Shown: one piece after another, positions 9,878 through 25,890 of the stretch
How positions within the stretch are numbered: position 1 is the first letter of the stretch
How the letters are laid out: every line of letters begins with the position of its first letter
Assembly: GCA_030589895.1 (NCBI GenBank)
Contig: JAUUZQ010000029.1
Span: 1-38,276 of the forward strand
Length of the DNA stretch: 38,276 bases
Source of the DNA: Bacteroidales bacterium
Lineage (GTDB): Bacteria; Bacteroidota; Bacteroidia; Bacteroidales; GCA-2748055
Direction of reading: 5' to 3'
Notes under the pieces: model-generated
Database searches by the model: none
What the model was told of the DNA's origin: nothing
The model's input: only the letters and a program-made list of their open reading frames with translations
Translations under genes and position numbers: made by a program

Positions 9878-9987
9878 GATTTTTAGTTTAATATATAACT
9901 CGAAATTACAATATAAACTGACTATTGTCAATTGGTATTTGATTAATGGCAAGATGCAGAATCAGCTATGAAGGTTGCGTTGGACAT

Positions 9988-10059
9988 GCGACAATGCGAC
10001 AATGCGACAATGCGACAATGCGACAATGCAACAATGTAACAATGCAACAATGCAACAAT
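9988..10059. repeat. Tandem octamer array, nine units of GCRACAAT
   Basis: Nine adjoining 8-bp units can be read directly: five GCGACAAT, then GCAACAAT, GTAACAAT and two GCAACAAT. The array lies between the histidine kinase stop (10078) and the lipoprotein start (9877). The same unit recurs near 20.8 kb. No coding role is visible here. Confidence 0.95.
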
Positions 10060-10077
10060 GCGTAAGTTAAAAAACTA

Positions 10078-16469: not shown

Positions 16470-16981
16470 CTTATTTTTTTTTCAAGTCCAATGAACCGCG
16501 TTTCAAAACCGGGGAAATAAAATTCATTCAGTTCTTTGTAATTCAGCTTCTTATATAGATTCCTTCCCGGAATATTTATCGTGTATACATCCATTCTTAT
16601 CGAAGAACAAGCAGATGATTTAGCCAGTTTCTCAGCAAATTCCATCATTATTACCGCGTAACCTTTTCCCTGATGATCGGGAGAGATGGCAAGTCGGTGA
16701 ACAACCAGAAATGGACCGCTCAGATACTCCCAGTTTACCTCAGCATACTCAATTGGCTGGTCATCATTCAATGCCACAGCACCATGAATCCGATCGGTTT
16801 CAAGGATATAAAGCGTTCCGTTTCGAATATCTCCGGAGAGAGTCTCTGAATCAGGATAAGTGCTATGCCAGTTGAAGAGCCCTGATTGATTCATTTTTAT
16901 TGTACAATTCTTGTAGAGTTCAACAACTTGTTCCATATCAGCTTCCCGGGCCTGTCGAATGTGCCAATTACTGTTGCTCAT
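16466..16981 (-). CDS. GNAT-family N-acetyltransferase
   Basis: The 171-residue protein has the GNAT fold: N-terminal IRQAREADMEQVVELYKNC, and motif A at about 96-116 (RLAISPDHQGKGYAVIMMEFAE), where QGKGYA is the acetyl-CoA pyrophosphate-binding loop. NIPGRNLYKKLNYKE is the usual C-terminal part. The substrate is unknown. Its start lies within the end of the amidohydrolase gene (14-base overlap), so the two are translationally coupled on the minus strand. Confidence 0.88.
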   Translation of the reverse strand: MSNSNWHIRQAREADMEQVVELYKNCTIKMNQSGLFNWHSTYPDSETLSGDIRNGTLYILETDRIHGAVALNDDQPIEYAEVNWEYLSGPFLVVHRLAISPDHQGKGYAVIMMEFAEKLAKSSACSSIRMDVYTINIPGRNLYKKLNYKELNEFYFPGFETRFIGLEKKIS

Positions 16982-18602
16982 ATACTTTCACTCCTCCCGA
17001 GTATGTATAGGCTACATTTATTTGTGCTAAATTTTCTTCAGTGGCCGTCATTATATCCTCTTTTGTAACAATGAAATCTGCCAGTTTCCCGCTTTCTATA
17101 CTACCCTTGAGATCTTCTTCAAAAGTCGATTTTGCTGCCCAGATAGTCATTGAGCGCAACGCTTCCTCTCTTGTAAGACATTCTTCAGGCCTGAATCCAT
17201 TAGCAGGATATCCTTTCAGGTCCTTCCTGAATACAGCAGCATAGAATCCATATAGAGGATTGATCTGCTCAACCGGAAAATCACTTCCATTGGGAAGCCA
17301 TCCATTTTGGGAAAGCAGTGTTTTGTAGCTATATGCACCTTCAATTCTTGTCGCTCCCAATCTATCAATGGCCCAGTACATATCTGATGTGGCATGGGTC
17401 GATTGAATGGATGGGATAATACTGTACTTTGCAAACAACTTGAAGTCATCAGGATGAATAACCTGGGCATGCTCAATTCTCCATCTTCTGTCATTTTTCC
17501 CTTCAAGCAACTCTCCAAAAATTTTCAAAACCTGTCTATTGGCATCATCCCCAATACAATGGACAGCAACCTGAAAATTGTTCTCCAACGCTCGTTTCGA
17601 ATAGGCTTCCATATCTTCCAATGAAGTTACAAAGATTCCTTTGTTTTCAGGATCGTCAGAATAGGGCTCAATCATTCTTGCACCCCTGGATCCAAGTGCG
17701 CCATCGGCAAAAAGTTTTATGGTGCCGATTGTCAGATAGTCGTTCTGAAATATACCATTTTCCACATACGTTTTGAAGTTGTTTTCGCTGGGACTCAGCA
17801 TTGCATTCATCCTCATTTTCAATAAGCCTGATTGATGAAGTGAATCAATAAGCCTTACTTCATTGGTATTTAATCCCGCATCAGTTACGGAGGTGAGCCC
17901 TACTGCAAAACAGTTTTTCTCAGCTTCAAGCAGTCCCTTTTCAAGTTCCTCAATTTTGGGTTTTGGAATAATTTCCCCTACCAGTCCAATGGCATTGTCG
18001 ATTAAAATCCCGCTTGGTGCTCCATCATTCAATTTGACTTCGCCACCGTCGATCAAGGTTTTTGCTGTAATTCCAGCCATTTCTAAGGCAATAGTGTTTG
18101 CCCAGGCTGCATGTCCATCAATTCTTCTAAGAAGAACAGGGATCTCAGGGAAGGCTTCATCGAGTATTTTTTTGTTTGGAAATTCTTTTATTTCCCAGTC
18201 ATTCTGGTCCCACCCACGCCCTGTAATCCAGTCAGGATTATTTTCTTCCACGAATTTTTGGCATAGCTCAATGATTTCCTCTACCGAGCTGCTTCCTCTT
18301 AATTCAACCTGGTTAAGAGACAGACCGTAGCCCAGGAAATGACAGTGGGGATCGATCCATCCAGGATATATATAATGATCCTCCAGTGATAGGGTAGATG
18401 AGGCGCTATATTTCTCTTCCATCTCATTTTTTGTACCGGTATCGAATATATGACCATCTTTCACAACGAAAGCTTCCACTGTTGAAAATTTTTCATCTAC
18501 TGTATATATGGTAGCATCTTTCACCAGCAGATCAACTTGTTCTTTTTTCATGGTACATCCTGTAATGAGAATAGTAGCAATTAGAAGTAATATCCGGTTC
18601 AT
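16968..18602 (-). CDS. Amidohydrolase family 3 lipoprotein (YtcJ-like)
   Basis: The 544-residue protein has a short lipoprotein signal (ILITGC, Cys16) and an amidohydrolase_3 fold. Metal-site motifs are DPHCHFLGYG near residue 84, HCIGDDANRQ, RIEHAQVIHP and NGSDFPVE. Members hydrolyse C-N bonds with a metal centre in a TIM barrel. The lipid anchor suggests a periplasmic or outer-membrane site of action, unlike most cytosolic members. The substrate cannot be predicted. It lies first in a two-gene unit with the GNAT gene, so the two may act on related amino compounds (inference). Confidence 0.85.
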   Translation of the reverse strand: MNRILLLIATILITGCTMKKEQVDLLVKDATIYTVDEKFSTVEAFVVKDGHIFDTGTKNEMEEKYSASSTLSLEDHYIYPGWIDPHCHFLGYGLSLNQVELRGSSSVEEIIELCQKFVEENNPDWITGRGWDQNDWEIKEFPNKKILDEAFPEIPVLLRRIDGHAAWANTIALEMAGITAKTLIDGGEVKLNDGAPSGILIDNAIGLVGEIIPKPKIEELEKGLLEAEKNCFAVGLTSVTDAGLNTNEVRLIDSLHQSGLLKMRMNAMLSPSENNFKTYVENGIFQNDYLTIGTIKLFADGALGSRGARMIEPYSDDPENKGIFVTSLEDMEAYSKRALENNFQVAVHCIGDDANRQVLKIFGELLEGKNDRRWRIEHAQVIHPDDFKLFAKYSIIPSIQSTHATSDMYWAIDRLGATRIEGAYSYKTLLSQNGWLPNGSDFPVEQINPLYGFYAAVFRKDLKGYPANGFRPEECLTREEALRSMTIWAAKSTFEEDLKGSIESGKLADFIVTKEDIMTATEENLAQINVAYTYSGGVKVYEQQ

Positions 18603-18664
18603 TGTTTCTTTTTTTGTAAAAGTAGTAAAAAGAGGGGAAGATGGGAAGGAGAGAAGGGGTCTCC

Positions 18665-18718
18665 ATAGCTATTGGGAGGGAGGAGGGGTGCTGATAGCTA
18701 TCGAGAGGGAGAAGGGGA
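18665..18718. repeat. Two copies of a dispersed ATAGCTAT-purine repeat
   Basis: Two units begin with ATAGCTAT (18665 and 18694, 29 bases apart) and continue into a GAGGGAG-rich purine tract. The second carries the perfect palindrome GATAGCTATC. The same unit occurs inverted at 33251-33278. The repeat lies between the amidohydrolase start and the ywbE promoter-like box, with no coding potential seen. Confidence 0.8.
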
Positions 18719-18728
18719 GAAATTATTG

Positions 18729-18736
18729 TATTTTTG
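18729..18736 (+). promoter_or_regulatory. Candidate -7 box (TATTTTTG) for ywbE
   Basis: The octamer matches TAnnTTTG and ends 20 bases before the ywbE ATG. No clear TTTG element lies upstream, since that position is taken by the purine-rich repeat. Confidence 0.4.
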
Positions 18737-18756
18737 GGATTTCATATATTCAAATT

Positions 18757-18954
18757 ATGCAAGGAATAGTAAGAAGCAATATTAAGCCCGGAATATTTGT
18801 GAAAATTATCTTGAAACAAGATCAGAGGTCCGGTAAACTAACAGAAGGAGTAGTTAAGAATATTCTCACGAATAGTCCAGGTCATCCTCATGGAATTAAA
18901 GTACAATTGGAGACCGGCGAAGTGGGTAGAGTGAAATTTATAATGGAAATGTAA
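18757..18954 (+). CDS. ywbE: YwbE family protein
   Basis: The 65-residue protein matches the small YwbE (DUF2196) family: start GIVRSNIKPG, central VKIILKQDQRSGKLTEGVV, then NSPGHPHGIKVQLETGEVGRV. The family is conserved in many bacteria and has no established function; its short beta-rich fold suggests nucleic-acid or ribosome-related binding only by analogy. A longer in-frame reading back to 18508 exists, but it would run through the purine repeat and antisense to the amidohydrolase gene, so the ATG at 18757 is preferred. Confidence 0.85.
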   Translation: MQGIVRSNIKPGIFVKIILKQDQRSGKLTEGVVKNILTNSPGHPHGIKVQLETGEVGRVKFIMEM

Positions 18955-18978
18955 TCATATACAATACTTAATAGAGCA

Positions 18979-19227
18979 ATGAGATATCTGATTCCTATAT
19001 TTTTGCAGAAAGTAGTAGATATTACAATTGATCAAAAACCTGATGCAGTATTTATTACTGGTGATCTGTTTGATGGACGCATCAATCTTTCAGAAGAGAA
19101 TCTTTCACCTGTGAAACAGATAAAGGTCCCCGTCTTTTTTGTTGAGGGGAATCATGATGGATATGCAGATGAACATGGTATTGATTTATATCTTTCGGGT
19201 CATACCCATGCAGGTCAGATTTCCCCC
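18979..19227 (+). pseudogene. Metallophosphoesterase remnant with internal deletion
   Basis: About 83 residues match pieces of a YkuE/YaeI-type metallophosphoesterase: QKPDAVFITGDLFDG, VPVFFVEGNHDGY, then GIDLYLSGHTHAGQISP. The first metal-binding motif (D-x-H) is missing. The GNHD and GHTH motifs, normally about 80-100 residues apart, are only about 14 apart here, so the middle of the enzyme is gone. The C-terminus is lost too: after ISP the reading frame runs on into the signal sequence of the next gene. Without the first metal ligands and core strands it cannot be active. It is a decayed gene, perhaps formerly in a unit with ywbE. Confidence 0.85.
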
Positions 19228-19308
19228 ATTATCCTTCACTCTTTTCTTTGTACTATTTTCCCCATCTTTGCGTTAATATTTCAATACTCATTGTTTGAAG
19301 CTTTTATT

Positions 19309-20739
19309 GTGAAGAAGATACTCCTATATGCTGTACTGGTTTTTCTGATAAGTCTGCTCTTTTATTGCAATCCTGAAAGAAATTATATTGATGACCATGA
19401 TGCCCGCTTAAGCTTTACGGTTGACACCGTATATTTTGATACTGTGTTTACCACCATAGGCACTATCACCAGGTCATTTCGTGTTCACAATCATCACGAC
19501 CGCTTTATAAAGATTGACAAAATTGTCCTGGCCGGAGGTGATAATTCAGTATTCAGAATTAATGTTGACGGATTGGGTGGAACTGAGTTTGATGGATATG
19601 AGATTGCTCCCAATGATAGTATGTATATTTTTGTTGAGGCAACACTTGACCTTAATAATACAGCTGATATTTTGCGAATTCAGGACTCTATCACTTTTGA
19701 GGTGAATGGAAATTTACAGGATGTTGATCTGGTTGCCTGGGGACAGGATGTGCATTTGTTGCGGGATAGCATTCTGGATTATTCTACAACCTGGATTGCT
19801 GATAAACCATATCTGATTATAGGGGCAATTCTTGTGGATACATTGCAGACGCTTACAATGGAAGAGGGAGTGAAGGTTTATATGCACCGTGATTCATGGA
19901 TATATGTAAAAGGATCCTTGAAAATGGCTGGATCATATGAGAATCCGGTTACTGTGCAGGGGGACAGACTTGAGTTGTATTATGATGAATATCCGGGACA
20001 GTGGGGTGGAATCTATTTTGTGCCGGGAAGTGTTGAAAATGAGATAGATAATGCACTGATTATTAATGGAACAGTTGGGTTCTGGGCTGATTCTATGGTA
20101 AACTTTTCAGAGCCGGTTCTTAAAATATCCAATACTGAGATCAATCGGATGAGTCATGATGGAATCCTTGCCAGGGGCTCATCAATTGATGCTTATAATC
20201 TTGTCATCGGAGATTGCGGAAATAGTTGTTTGGAGCTTCTCTATGAAGGTTCATATACTTTCAATCATTGTACATTTGCAAATTATTGGTTTAGTGGTTT
20301 TTCTAACAGAAGAACACCTGCGCTGTTCATCGCAAATTATTTTGCGTATAAAGATGACAATGGAATTGAGCATATTGAAGCAAGGGATATTGAGGAGGCT
20401 ACTTTTCGGAATTGCATAATCTATGGCTCCAATGCCCATGAAATTATTGTATCCAAATCTCCTGATGGAATCTTAAATTACACCTTCGATCGTTGTCTGA
20501 CAAAGATGGATGAGAATAAGTACAATTTTCATCAGGATCCTAATTTTATTGCCATTACAAACGAAAAAGATCCACTGTTTGATTCCCTGCATGTTAGCTA
20601 TGAACTTGATACATTATCTCCTGCCATAGACATAGCTTATTTCGATTATTCAATTTCCTTCCCACTGGATAAAAAAGGAGACAATAGATTCGCCGATGGA
20701 AAACCCGATCTGGGCGCTTTTGAAAGAATTGAGCAATAG
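19309..20739 (+). CDS. Beta-helix lipoprotein with choice-of-anchor-Q-like end
   Basis: An open frame starts at 18979, but its first 110 codons are the metallophosphoesterase remnant and non-coding sequence. A GTG at 19309 gives a proper lipoprotein signal (VKKILLYAVLVFLISLLFYC, Cys20), so I place the start there (476 residues). The N-terminal part (FTVDTVYFDTVFTTIGTITRSFRVHN) is a beta-sandwich common in Bacteroidota surface lipoproteins. The middle (about 180-380) shows right-handed beta-helix rungs (KVYMHRDSWIYVKGSLKMAG, SNTEINRMSHDGILARGSS). The end, SPAIDIAY then KPDLGAFE, resembles choice-of-anchor Q. It is probably a surface or periplasmic binding protein of unknown ligand. Confidence 0.8.
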   Translation: MKKILLYAVLVFLISLLFYCNPERNYIDDHDARLSFTVDTVYFDTVFTTIGTITRSFRVHNHHDRFIKIDKIVLAGGDNSVFRINVDGLGGTEFDGYEIAPNDSMYIFVEATLDLNNTADILRIQDSITFEVNGNLQDVDLVAWGQDVHLLRDSILDYSTTWIADKPYLIIGAILVDTLQTLTMEEGVKVYMHRDSWIYVKGSLKMAGSYENPVTVQGDRLELYYDEYPGQWGGIYFVPGSVENEIDNALIINGTVGFWADSMVNFSEPVLKISNTEINRMSHDGILARGSSIDAYNLVIGDCGNSCLELLYEGSYTFNHCTFANYWFSGFSNRRTPALFIANYFAYKDDNGIEHIEARDIEEATFRNCIIYGSNAHEIIVSKSPDGILNYTFDRCLTKMDENKYNFHQDPNFIAITNEKDPLFDSLHVSYELDTLSPAIDIAYFDYSISFPLDKKGDNRFADGKPDLGAFERIEQ

Positions 20740-20780
20740 GCGCGATATTTCCACTTCTCATCACATTAAGGGGTATTAAT

Positions 20781-20828
20781 GCAACAATGCAACAATGCAA
20801 CAATGCGACAATGCAACAATGCGACAAT
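20781..20828. repeat. Second tandem octamer array, six units of GCRACAAT
   Basis: Six adjoining units: three GCAACAAT, then GCGACAAT, GCAACAAT and GCGACAAT. The array ends ten bases before the ATG of the next gene. Adjacent units create an ATG at each junction, so the array supplies extra start codons in all three frames; one of them opens a spurious 20-residue extension of the downstream gene. Confidence 0.95.
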
Positions 20829-20838
20829 GTGCAGATTG

Positions 20839-21870
20839 ATGAAAGGAAAGTATATCTTTCTCGGTTTTGCTGTAGTAGTGCTTTTGGCAGGGTGCTCCTC
20901 TGTTGAAAGACAGAAAAGTGGTGATGTGAATTTTCCAAATGACCTTCCCTGTACTTTCATGTTTTACAATGTGGAGAATCTTTTTCATCCATCTGATGAT
21001 TCACTCTCCGGTGATGACCCATTCACTCCTGCAGGAGAAAAACGATGGACCTATAGCAAGTACAATCGGAAGATAAACGCAATATGCAAAGTAATTCTTG
21101 CAGCAGGGGAATGGGAGCCTCCTTTGTTAATTGGATTGTGTGAACTGGAGAATGACAGAGTGCTTAAAGATTTAATATACAACCCATTGTTGATTGATTA
21201 TAACTACAAATTTCTGCATCGTGACAGCCCGGATCATAGAGGAATTGATGTTGCACTACTGTATAGGGAAGATGAGATCAGATACATTTCACATAGTTTT
21301 ATTAGCAATTGTCTGCCTGATGGAAGGAATACAACCAGAGAGATATTGCATGGTGAATTTGCTTTGCAAACCGACACTATTGATATTTATGTGAACCATT
21401 GGACATCAAAGTATGGAGGTGCATATGAGACTGAGAAATTCAGAGTTTACCAGGCCAGATTATTGTCGAATGCCATTGACTCCTTACTTTTTATTTTTCC
21501 TCAGCGAAAAGTGCTTGTTGCAGGAGATTTTAATGACAACAGCAGTTCAGCTTCAATTGAAATTCTTAAGGCGAATGAAATTTTGCAGGAAATTGTTCCT
21601 CAATCAGAATTCGACAGTTACAAGTACCAGGGAAAGTGGGAGTCGATAGATCATTTTTTTGTCGTCGGTAAATGGAACTCAGATCAATACAGAAGTGAAG
21701 TATTTGCACCTCGTTTCCTGCTTGAGGATGATGTTACTTATACAGGCTTAAAGCCCTTCAGGACATATGCGGGCTATTCCTATAATGGTGGAATTAGCGA
21801 TCATCTGCCAATCCTGTTGCATTTTAATCTTCAGGAGGCTGTTCAATCTGCCAATCCTGTTGCATTTTAA
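20839..21870 (+). CDS. Endonuclease/exonuclease/phosphatase-family lipoprotein
   Basis: The 343-residue protein starts at the ATG at 20839, which gives a lipoprotein signal ending LLAGC (Cys19); an upstream start at 20779 would add only octamer-encoded QCNNATM residues. The EEP fold is shown by FYNVENLF (about 42-49), CELEN, HRGIDVALLYR, the VNHW motif, VAGDFND and SDHLPILL, which are the usual metal- and phosphate-binding motifs. Members cleave nucleic acids or phosphoesters; with a lipid anchor this one acts outside the cytoplasm, perhaps in phosphate or nucleotide scavenging (inference). Its last residues are encoded by a duplicated stretch (see 21803-21885). Confidence 0.85.
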   Translation: MKGKYIFLGFAVVVLLAGCSSVERQKSGDVNFPNDLPCTFMFYNVENLFHPSDDSLSGDDPFTPAGEKRWTYSKYNRKINAICKVILAAGEWEPPLLIGLCELENDRVLKDLIYNPLLIDYNYKFLHRDSPDHRGIDVALLYREDEIRYISHSFISNCLPDGRNTTREILHGEFALQTDTIDIYVNHWTSKYGGAYETEKFRVYQARLLSNAIDSLLFIFPQRKVLVAGDFNDNSSSASIEILKANEILQEIVPQSEFDSYKYQGKWESIDHFFVVGKWNSDQYRSEVFAPRFLLEDDVTYTGLKPFRTYAGYSYNGGISDHLPILLHFNLQEAVQSANPVAF

Positions 21871-21885
21871 TCTTCAGGAGGCTGT
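21803..21885. repeat. Direct repeat of 40 bp, 43-bp period, at a convergent gene end
   Basis: Bases 21803-21842 and 21846-21885 are identical, starting ATCTGCCAATCC and ending AGGAGGCTGT. The first copy encodes the EEP protein's conserved PILLHFNLQEA in one frame. The second is read in another frame by that gene (NPVAF, stop) and on the other strand encodes the end of the CCA-adding enzyme (LQPPED, stop). Confidence 0.95.
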
Positions 21886-23315: not shown

Positions 23316-23347
23316 GAAGTACAAAAGTAGTATATTTGTAATTGAAT

Positions 23348-23424
23348 TCTCTAAGGGGGGTGCCTTAAATTTCAGGCTGAGATTATACCCTTAGAACCTG
23401 ATCCGGGTAATGCCGGTGTAGGGA
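23348..23424 (+). promoter_or_regulatory. TPP riboswitch (THI element)
   Basis: The conserved core is plain: GGGGTGCC, then CTGAGA (23377-23382), ACCCTTAGAACCTGAT (23387-23402), and GGGTAATGCCGG (23405-23416). P1 can form between TCTCT (23348-23352) and AGGGA (23420-23424). These are the pyrimidine-binding and pyrophosphate-binding parts of the thiamine pyrophosphate aptamer. It lies 39 bases before the TonB-dependent receptor start. I see no strong terminator hairpin there, so control may be at translation. Confidence 0.96.
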
Positions 23425-23463
23425 TAAGAAGAAATCGAATGAGACATTTTTAATTTTCAGGCT

Positions 23464-25890
23464 ATGAGGAAGCAAGTTTTTTTAGGACTTGTATGGTTTT
23501 TTATTGCCATGCAGGTATCCGGACAGAATACAGTGACCGGGATAATTGTTGATGAGCAGAATACCCCACTTGAAGGAGCCAGTATTGTTGCAGAAGAGCT
23601 GATGATAGGGAGTATTGCTAATCGTGGCGGAGACTTTAGTCTTAATGATATTCCATTAGGCGCACTTAAACTAAAAGTTTCATTTATTGGTTATGAAACA
23701 TATTCTGTTAGTATTGATATTGAAGCAGATACTGAGCTTGGGAAAATTATTTTAATAAGATCCCCATATCAGGGAGAAGAGGTTACCATTAGTGCTTTAA
23801 AAGCAGGTAAAAAGACGCCTATGGCGTTTACAAATATGAGCAAACAGGAGATTACAAACAGGAATTTTGGAATGGATATTCCATACATTGTAAGCTCAAC
23901 TCCATCTATGATTACCTCTTCCGATGCAGGCCATGGAATTGGTTATACATCAATGAGAATCAGGGGAACAGATGCCAATCGTATCAATGTCACTATTAAT
24001 GGGATTCCTTTAAACGATGCGGAATCCCAAAGTGTATTCTGGGTTGATCTGCCGGAACTAGCCTCATCAACGGATCAGATTCAAATCCAAAGAGGTGTGG
24101 GTACATCTACCAATGGAGCCGCTGCATTTGGCGCAACTGTGAATATGCTCACCAATCTTTTAAACAAGGATCCATATGCCAAATATAACGCTACGCTTGG
24201 GTCCTTTAATACCATGAGAAACTCAATTTCTGCAGGTACCGGACTTATCAATGACAAATTCTCTATGGATGTAAGGATTTCAGACCTGAAGTCAGACGGC
24301 TATATTGATCGCTCATGGACTGATCTTCAATCCTATTACCTTTCTGCAGCATATTATTCTGAGAAATCAAGTGTGAAATTTATCACTTTTGGAGGGTTTG
24401 AGGAACTTTATCAATCGTGGGGTGGGGTTCCCTCTTCAATGTTGAGTACAAACCGAACTTACAATGAAATGGGTTTGTATACCAATGTAAATGGAGATAA
24501 TACTGCCTATGAAAATCAGGTGGATCATTATGATCAGGTGCATTATCAACTTCATTATGCACGGAGAATTAACAGGGCAATTCATTTAAATGCAGCTTTG
24601 CATTATACAAAGGGAAAAGGCTACTATGAGCAGTATGAATCTGGTGAAGATTATTCATTTTATGGTATGAAGGAGGCTGTTATTGGGGGTGATACGCTTA
24701 CCCAAACAGATCTTGTCAGAAGAAAAATGCTTGACAATGATTTTTATGGAGCAATAGCTTCAGTAAATTACGATTTAGAAAATAGTACCCTGATCATTGG
24801 AGCCGGGTGGAATCGTTATTATGGATTACATTTTGGCCAGGTAATCTGGGCACAGTATTTTGGTGACAATTCTATTGGTCATCAATGGTATGAAGGAATT
24901 GGAGATAAAACTGACTGGAATATTTACAGCAAGTACTACTACTATGTTAATGATAAGTTCAATACTTTTGTTGATCTTCAGATCAGAGGTGTGGATCATA
25001 TAATTGAAGGAACAGATGCCAACAACAGGGATGTAACTCAGGATCATTCTTTCCTGTTTTTTAATCCGAAGATAGGAGTGAATTATGATCTTTTAAATGG
25101 GCAGCGTGCCTTTTTTTCCTTTGCCCGGGCCAACAGGGAGCCAAACAGGAATAATTATACTGATGTCGGACCTGCAGGAATAGAACCATTACATGAATGT
25201 ATGCGTGATTTTGAAGCTGGTTATATGTACAAAGGACAGCAGTTGACCGGGGGAGTTACTTTATACTTTATGGATTATAACAATCAGTTGGTCCTCACAG
25301 GTCAGATCAATGAAGTGGGTTATCCGATAATGACCAACGTGAAGGATAGTTATCGTGCGGGAGTTGAATTTGAGGCATCTTACAGAATTACAGAAAACCT
25401 GAGTTGGAATATGAACCTGACACTGAGCAGAAATCAAATTAGTGATTATACGAATTATGTGGATAACTGGAGTTATTGGGACGATCCCATTAATGAAGCA
25501 ATCCAGATTCTGGATACTATCGGTACAAGTGCGCTGGCTTTTTCACCGTCTGTTATTGCAAATAATCTCTTGACTTTCAGTCCAATAAAAAACTCCAGTA
25601 TATCCTTGATTACAAAATATGTAGGGAAACAGTATATTGATAATACATCAAATGAAAACTTCATCCTTGATCCATATTTTGTCAATGATCTTCGCATTTC
25701 ATATACATTTACACCAAACTGGGCGCAAGGCATAACCCTAAGTTTGTTATTAATAAATCTCCTGAATGAGAAATATGAAACCAATGCCTGGTTATACAGG
25801 TATTATTCCGGAGGTGAGGAATATTTTATGGATGGATATTACCCTCAGGCTGGCACTCATTTCATGTTCTCGTTGAATATGAGTTTTTAA
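23464..25890 (+). CDS. TonB-dependent receptor, probably for thiamine or precursors
   Basis: The 808-residue protein has a signal peptide (about 1-20, ending VSGQ), a carboxypeptidase-regulatory-like beta domain (about 22-103, TVTGIIVDEQNTPLEGASIV), a TonB plug (about 115-235, with MRIRGTDANRINVTINGIPLND) and a 22-strand-type barrel ending in aromatic FSLNMSF. It is an outer-membrane active transporter. The TPP riboswitch directly upstream ties it to thiamine supply; thiamine-linked receptors of this kind are known in Bacteroides (OMPthi). No SusD partner, PnuT or thiamine kinase gene adjoins it, unlike the Bacteroides locus. Substrate is inferred from the riboswitch, not from the protein. 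Confidence 0.9.
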   Translation: MRKQVFLGLVWFFIAMQVSGQNTVTGIIVDEQNTPLEGASIVAEELMIGSIANRGGDFSLNDIPLGALKLKVSFIGYETYSVSIDIEADTELGKIILIRSPYQGEEVTISALKAGKKTPMAFTNMSKQEITNRNFGMDIPYIVSSTPSMITSSDAGHGIGYTSMRIRGTDANRINVTINGIPLNDAESQSVFWVDLPELASSTDQIQIQRGVGTSTNGAAAFGATVNMLTNLLNKDPYAKYNATLGSFNTMRNSISAGTGLINDKFSMDVRISDLKSDGYIDRSWTDLQSYYLSAAYYSEKSSVKFITFGGFEELYQSWGGVPSSMLSTNRTYNEMGLYTNVNGDNTAYENQVDHYDQVHYQLHYARRINRAIHLNAALHYTKGKGYYEQYESGEDYSFYGMKEAVIGGDTLTQTDLVRRKMLDNDFYGAIASVNYDLENSTLIIGAGWNRYYGLHFGQVIWAQYFGDNSIGHQWYEGIGDKTDWNIYSKYYYYVNDKFNTFVDLQIRGVDHIIEGTDANNRDVTQDHSFLFFNPKIGVNYDLLNGQRAFFSFARANREPNRNNYTDVGPAGIEPLHECMRDFEAGYMYKGQQLTGGVTLYFMDYNNQLVLTGQINEVGYPIMTNVKDSYRAGVEFEASYRITENLSWNMNLTLSRNQISDYTNYVDNWSYWDDPINEAIQILDTIGTSALAFSPSVIANNLLTFSPIKNSSISLITKYVGKQYIDNTSNENFILDPYFVNDLRISYTFTPNWAQGITLSLLLINLLNEKYETNAWLYRYYSGGEEYFMDGYYPQAGTHFMFSLNMSF

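Follow-up and report, generated by a model that had tools for sequence, protein, structure and literature searches.

The 586-codon open frame at positions 18979-20739 of the plus strand is a trap for annotation rather than a new two-domain fusion. It is very probably an accidental read-through of a phosphoesterase remnant, the promoter and leader of a lipoprotein gene, and the intact lipoprotein gene itself. The frame starts with ATG and contains no internal stop codons. The window, i.e., the whole stretch of 38,276 nucleotides that was analysed, is the entire contig C127 of a single MAG (3.84 Mb, 200 contigs, 88.9% complete). The original prediction had described a single frame of 586 codons and had interpreted it as a chimera of a dead phosphoesterase part and a complete lipoprotein; the frame is indeed uninterrupted, and the interpretation is supported. 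The locus contains the following features.

16968..18602, minus strand: amidohydrolase gene (Amidohydro_3; Pfam, 1.9e-91), the left neighbour
18635..19250 (ends approximate), no strand assigned: ~600 bp of putative extra DNA in the ancestral amidohydrolase/lipoprotein promoter region
18729-18736: consensus -7 element of ywbE, TATTTTTG
18757..18954, plus strand: intact ywbE gene, 65 aa (YwbE family, DUF2196; TIGR03833, 106 bits against a cutoff of 63.4; PF09962)
18979..18999, plus strand: the first seven codons of the false frame, which do not resemble phosphoesterases; alignments start at residue 8
19000..19164, plus strand: left island of the phosphoesterase remnant (residues 8-62; TGD, GNHD), 67% identical to residues 179-233 of the G011 homologue (BLASTP)
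19162..19164, plus strand: deletion junction at a shared Tyr codon, TAT, with 81 codons (243 bp) absent
19162..19236, plus strand: right island of the remnant (residues 62 to 84-86; GHTH), 70% identical to residues 314-336 of the G011 homologue
19257-19274 (starting at ~19255), plus strand: conserved promoter-like element of the lipoprotein gene, TTTCCCCATCTTTGCGTT, between the remnant and the GTG
19263-19270, plus strand: -7-like box CATCTTTG within this element
19275..19308, plus strand: predicted transcript start and leader of ~34 nt, derived from the geometry of the -7 element (PMC6847099)
19309..20739, plus strand: intact lipoprotein gene, 476 aa, GTG start, with signal peptide, lipobox Cys, beta-sandwich and beta-helix

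Residues 8-84 of the frame are homologous to YaeI/YkuE-like membrane metallophosphoesterases (PF00149), with up to 67% identity across 55 residues (G011). The motifs TGD (residues 27-29), GNHD (57-60) and GHTH (74-77) are present in order, and, as originally claimed, the middle between them is missing. The only Pfam domain on the frame is Metallophos at residues 9-62 (54 residues, matching profile positions 18-73 of 191; E 3e-8), while the remainder gives a weak Beta_helix match below the cut-off. Alignment to intact YkuE-type proteins places the ends of the internal deletion at Tyr233 and Tyr314 of the G011 protein, to both of which Tyr62 of the frame can be aligned. The deletion had been estimated at approximately 80-100 residues; it is exactly 81 in the closest intact homologues, and this offset is constant in other ones (e.g., L033, L034, L164 and L165). 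Since Tyr62 may belong to either side, the deletion comprises 243 bp with at least one codon of shared sequence.

The remnant, about 78 of ~377 residues, has lost more than the original prediction stated: unlike the intact enzymes, it also lacks ~170 residues at the N-terminus, including the membrane part and metal motif I, and ~59 at the C-terminus. As judged against seven intact homologues, three motifs are absent, i.e., motif I (D-x-H; SDIHLGH in homologues), which would precede the first aligned residue, the intervening histidine motif (LLHHSP in homologues; between GNHD and GHTH), which falls within the deleted 81 residues, and the C-terminal GTFGPPMR-type segment, which has no counterpart past residue ~86. 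In the metallophosphoesterase superfamily, motif I and the middle histidines supply metal ligands. As these ligands are gone, no activity is expected, and the phosphoesterase part is, to judge from its sequence, dead, as had been claimed. A MAFFT alignment paired residues 98-108 (LIFQYSLFEAF) with the LLFKYNKGLSDY segment of the enzyme, but this likeness was rejected as due to chance; the DNA concerned aligns with the upstream region of the lipoprotein gene in relatives.

Intact YaeI/YkuE-like metallophosphoesterases (~357-397 aa) are encoded by separate genes elsewhere, i.e., in four genomes of the family (G003, G008, G011 and G015, the copy in G011 being cut by a contig end) and in others of the order. 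The genome of the window, G000, encodes other PF00149 proteins; an intact copy of the phosphoesterase represented by the remnant was not found elsewhere in it, nor was a second match to the remnant. Differences between the remnant and its homologues, including that of G011, are mostly at third codon positions, and the decay thus looks fairly recent.

The lipoprotein gene, as far as alignment and structural modelling can tell, is complete and ordinary. The in-frame GTG at 19309 is codon 111 of the frame, and it aligns with the starts in relatives. The encoded protein (frame residues 111-586) aligns over its full length with 49 homologues at 37-68% identity, among them three from genus g4 (65-68%), and the lipobox Cys (Cys20 of the lipoprotein, frame residue 130) is invariant in all 50 aligned sequences. 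In an AlphaFold model (mean pLDDT 89.9, no segment below 50), a signal helix and a beta-sandwich can be seen, and the remainder is beta-helix-like. Alignment and model thus agree with the earlier claim of a complete lipoprotein that starts at a GTG with its own signal peptide. Fold searches returned matches to the N-terminal beta-sandwich alone, with low whole-chain TM-scores, and sequence searches of the PDB gave no matches; the profile matches, to Beta_helix (PF13229) and choice-of-anchor Q, were weak and both below the curated cut-offs. The protein resembles the beta-helix lipoprotein family of Bacteroidota from the signal peptide through the C-terminus, and nothing notable distinguishes the gene from those of this family besides the additional DNA in front of its promoter.

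Residues ~87-110 of the frame are part of neither protein. Here, inside the frame, lies the upstream element of the lipoprotein gene, an observation that goes beyond the original prediction. In G000, G001, G003, G006 and G010, the pattern TTTYCCCATYTTTGCGTT matches exactly at a single site, which in each case is found 5' of the lipoprotein gene; the copy upstream of this gene in G008 has two mismatches. The element could be aligned in 14 of 14 lipoprotein upstream regions, and an (A/C)TTATTTTCCCCAT(T/C)TTTGCGTT-like sequence is present at all same-family g2 loci and at most g4 loci. The distance from the -7-like box to the lipoprotein start is 27-43 bp in g2 and g4 loci, with one g4 locus at -131. 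In Bacteroidota, the -7 element is TAnnTTTG (PMC6847099; PMC7366714). The core in the window resembles it with a C replacing the first T, and this deviation of CATCTTTG from the consensus TA-start counts against the preferred explanation; a -33 element could not be clearly made out, which weighs against it too. From the position of the core, transcription would be predicted to begin at ~19275, with a leader of ~34 nt, close to the median of 32 nt in Bacteroides thetaiotaomicron (PMC7366714). The start near 19.25-19.3 kb that had been predicted for the lipoprotein transcript is therefore supported by a conserved sequence element. With its promoter element inside the false frame, the true start of the lipoprotein can be identified, and residues ~87-110 would be promoter and leader read as protein. 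A 24-codon spacer of matching composition stays open in 39% of shuffles; the frame is open across the spacer by chance.

A full-length fusion conserved in relatives was searched for in 120 other Bacteroidota genomes bearing a lipoprotein homologue (52 order- and family-level relatives and 68 further Bacteroidota, with no second species of the own genus, g1, among them) and was found in none. In these genomes, no lipoprotein match extends credibly into frame residues 1-67, and the sole match that starts as early as residue 71 crosses six stop codons. A remnant-family metallophosphoesterase was likewise absent from the fetched flanks of all 109 lipoprotein loci.

At 14 same-family loci, all of genus g2, the amidohydrolase gene and the lipoprotein gene diverge from each other, in head-to-head orientation, and the wider gene order is the same as in the window. 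The gap between the two genes is 706 bp in the window versus about 80-130 bp, measured between matched ends, in these 14 relatives. As the window's gap contains ywbE and the phosphoesterase remnant, comparison suggests that both are extra DNA at this site, a point not made before. The stretch of ~600 bp between the two genes was found in the window only. Its G+C content is 37.8%, compared with 39.1% for the contig. The ywbE gene was found in 60 of 393 genomes of the order and in none of the 27 other genomes of the family. The suggestion that relatives might carry the intact phosphoesterase gene downstream of ywbE was therefore not borne out within the family, and none of the 29 order-level ywbE loci examined has a remnant-family phosphoesterase within 1.5 kb. 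We also considered that ywbE and an intact phosphoesterase gene travel as a pair, and rejected this, as the pair was not found at these 29 loci or beside the phosphoesterase gene at 15 further loci.

Several other features of the contig were recorded. At 18508-18954, the ORF call (148 aa) extends ywbE too far upstream; the gene really starts at 18757. The intergenic DNA contains a G-rich 29-bp imperfect repeat at 18642-18717, with partial copies elsewhere in the genome, and short-word arrays at 9986-10062 (ATGCGACA, 9.6 copies) and 20778-20829 (AATGCAAC, 6.5 copies); in G013, a different word array (AGTTGAGAGTTGAAAGTTGAG) is located upstream of the lipoprotein gene. The AATGCAAC array gives the ORF of an endonuclease/exonuclease-phosphatase a false N-terminal extension (20779-20841); the protein probably begins with MKGKYIF, at about 20842. 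At 21803-21885, 43 bp are perfectly duplicated in tandem, across the region where the endonuclease-like gene (stop at 21870) and cca (stop at 21867) converge and overlap; cca is 65-74% identical to its counterparts in relatives. On the plus strand at 23345-23441, a TPP riboswitch (RF00059, 68.7 bits) lies directly 5' of a TonB-dependent receptor gene at 23464, which suggests that the receptor takes up thiamin or one of its precursors. The order is rearranged in genus g4, where this receptor gene and an element of similar appearance directly adjoin the lipoprotein gene.

The frame might also be a young functional fusion, in which the remnant serves as a membrane or cytosolic N-terminal domain that is translated from a ywbE-remnant-lipoprotein transcript. 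The frame is continuous, a consensus -7 element precedes ywbE, 24 bp separate the end of this gene from the ATG, and TGD, GNHD and GHTH are still present. Beyond its deletions, the remnant contains neither a stop codon nor a frameshift, and its motifs are well kept, which speaks against the preferred explanation; thus, expression within a longer protein may be conceivable. However, the two-metal site cannot be completed without motif I and the motif-IV histidines, the signal peptide of the lipoprotein would be buried at residue 111, where normal processing is not expected, and the native promoter element sits within the frame. The fusion is also absent from every relative searched, and the third-position pattern of the differences from G011, which fits a functional fusion, is equally expected from the period before decay. 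We therefore consider a functional fusion highly unlikely. A variant is an incipient fusion with two starts and an internal promoter, in which translation of the remnant from the ywbE transcript would yield a longer, membrane-anchored isoform besides the lipoprotein; its chance of being correct is just as slight.

Alternatively, the ywbE-remnant stretch could have been misjoined during assembly, as it is known from one MAG in 200 contigs of 88.9% completeness and ywbE was not found in the 27 other genomes of the family. Yet, the flanking amidohydrolase and lipoprotein genes keep their ancestral orientation and the conserved promoter element, the composition of the stretch matches that of the contig, synteny is otherwise like that in relatives, and the internal in-frame deletion of 243 bp would demand a second artefact. 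An assembly error is the least probable of these explanations.

If the frame is an accidental read-through, its history may have been as follows. A stretch of ~600 bp with ywbE and a phosphoesterase gene, the ancestor being a gene for a membrane-anchored YaeI/YkuE-like metallophosphoesterase, would have come to lie in the short stretch of promoter DNA that separated the divergent amidohydrolase and lipoprotein genes. The phosphoesterase gene would then have lost its start and N-terminal ~170 codons, its C-terminal part and the internal 243 bp, for which slippage at a short repeat that contained the shared TAT codon is the probable cause. The promoter element adjoining the lipoprotein gene would have been retained and, with this element kept, transcription of the gene most likely begins at about 19275 and its translation at 19309.

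Thus, the locus holds a pseudogene of an ordinary kind, the open frame of which is misleading. As in other spurious fused ORFs, where a decayed gene is in frame with its neighbour, longest-ORF calling joins the remnant, the promoter and the gene; in contrast to such cases, the conserved promoter element of the neighbour can be located inside the false frame. The finding has little bearing outside annotation. There, it illustrates cleanly how a spurious two-domain protein arises when a longest-ORF caller runs a pseudogene, a promoter and a gene together. The correct start of the lipoprotein is the GTG at 19309, and the gene-specific upstream element could be used to correct starts throughout the family.
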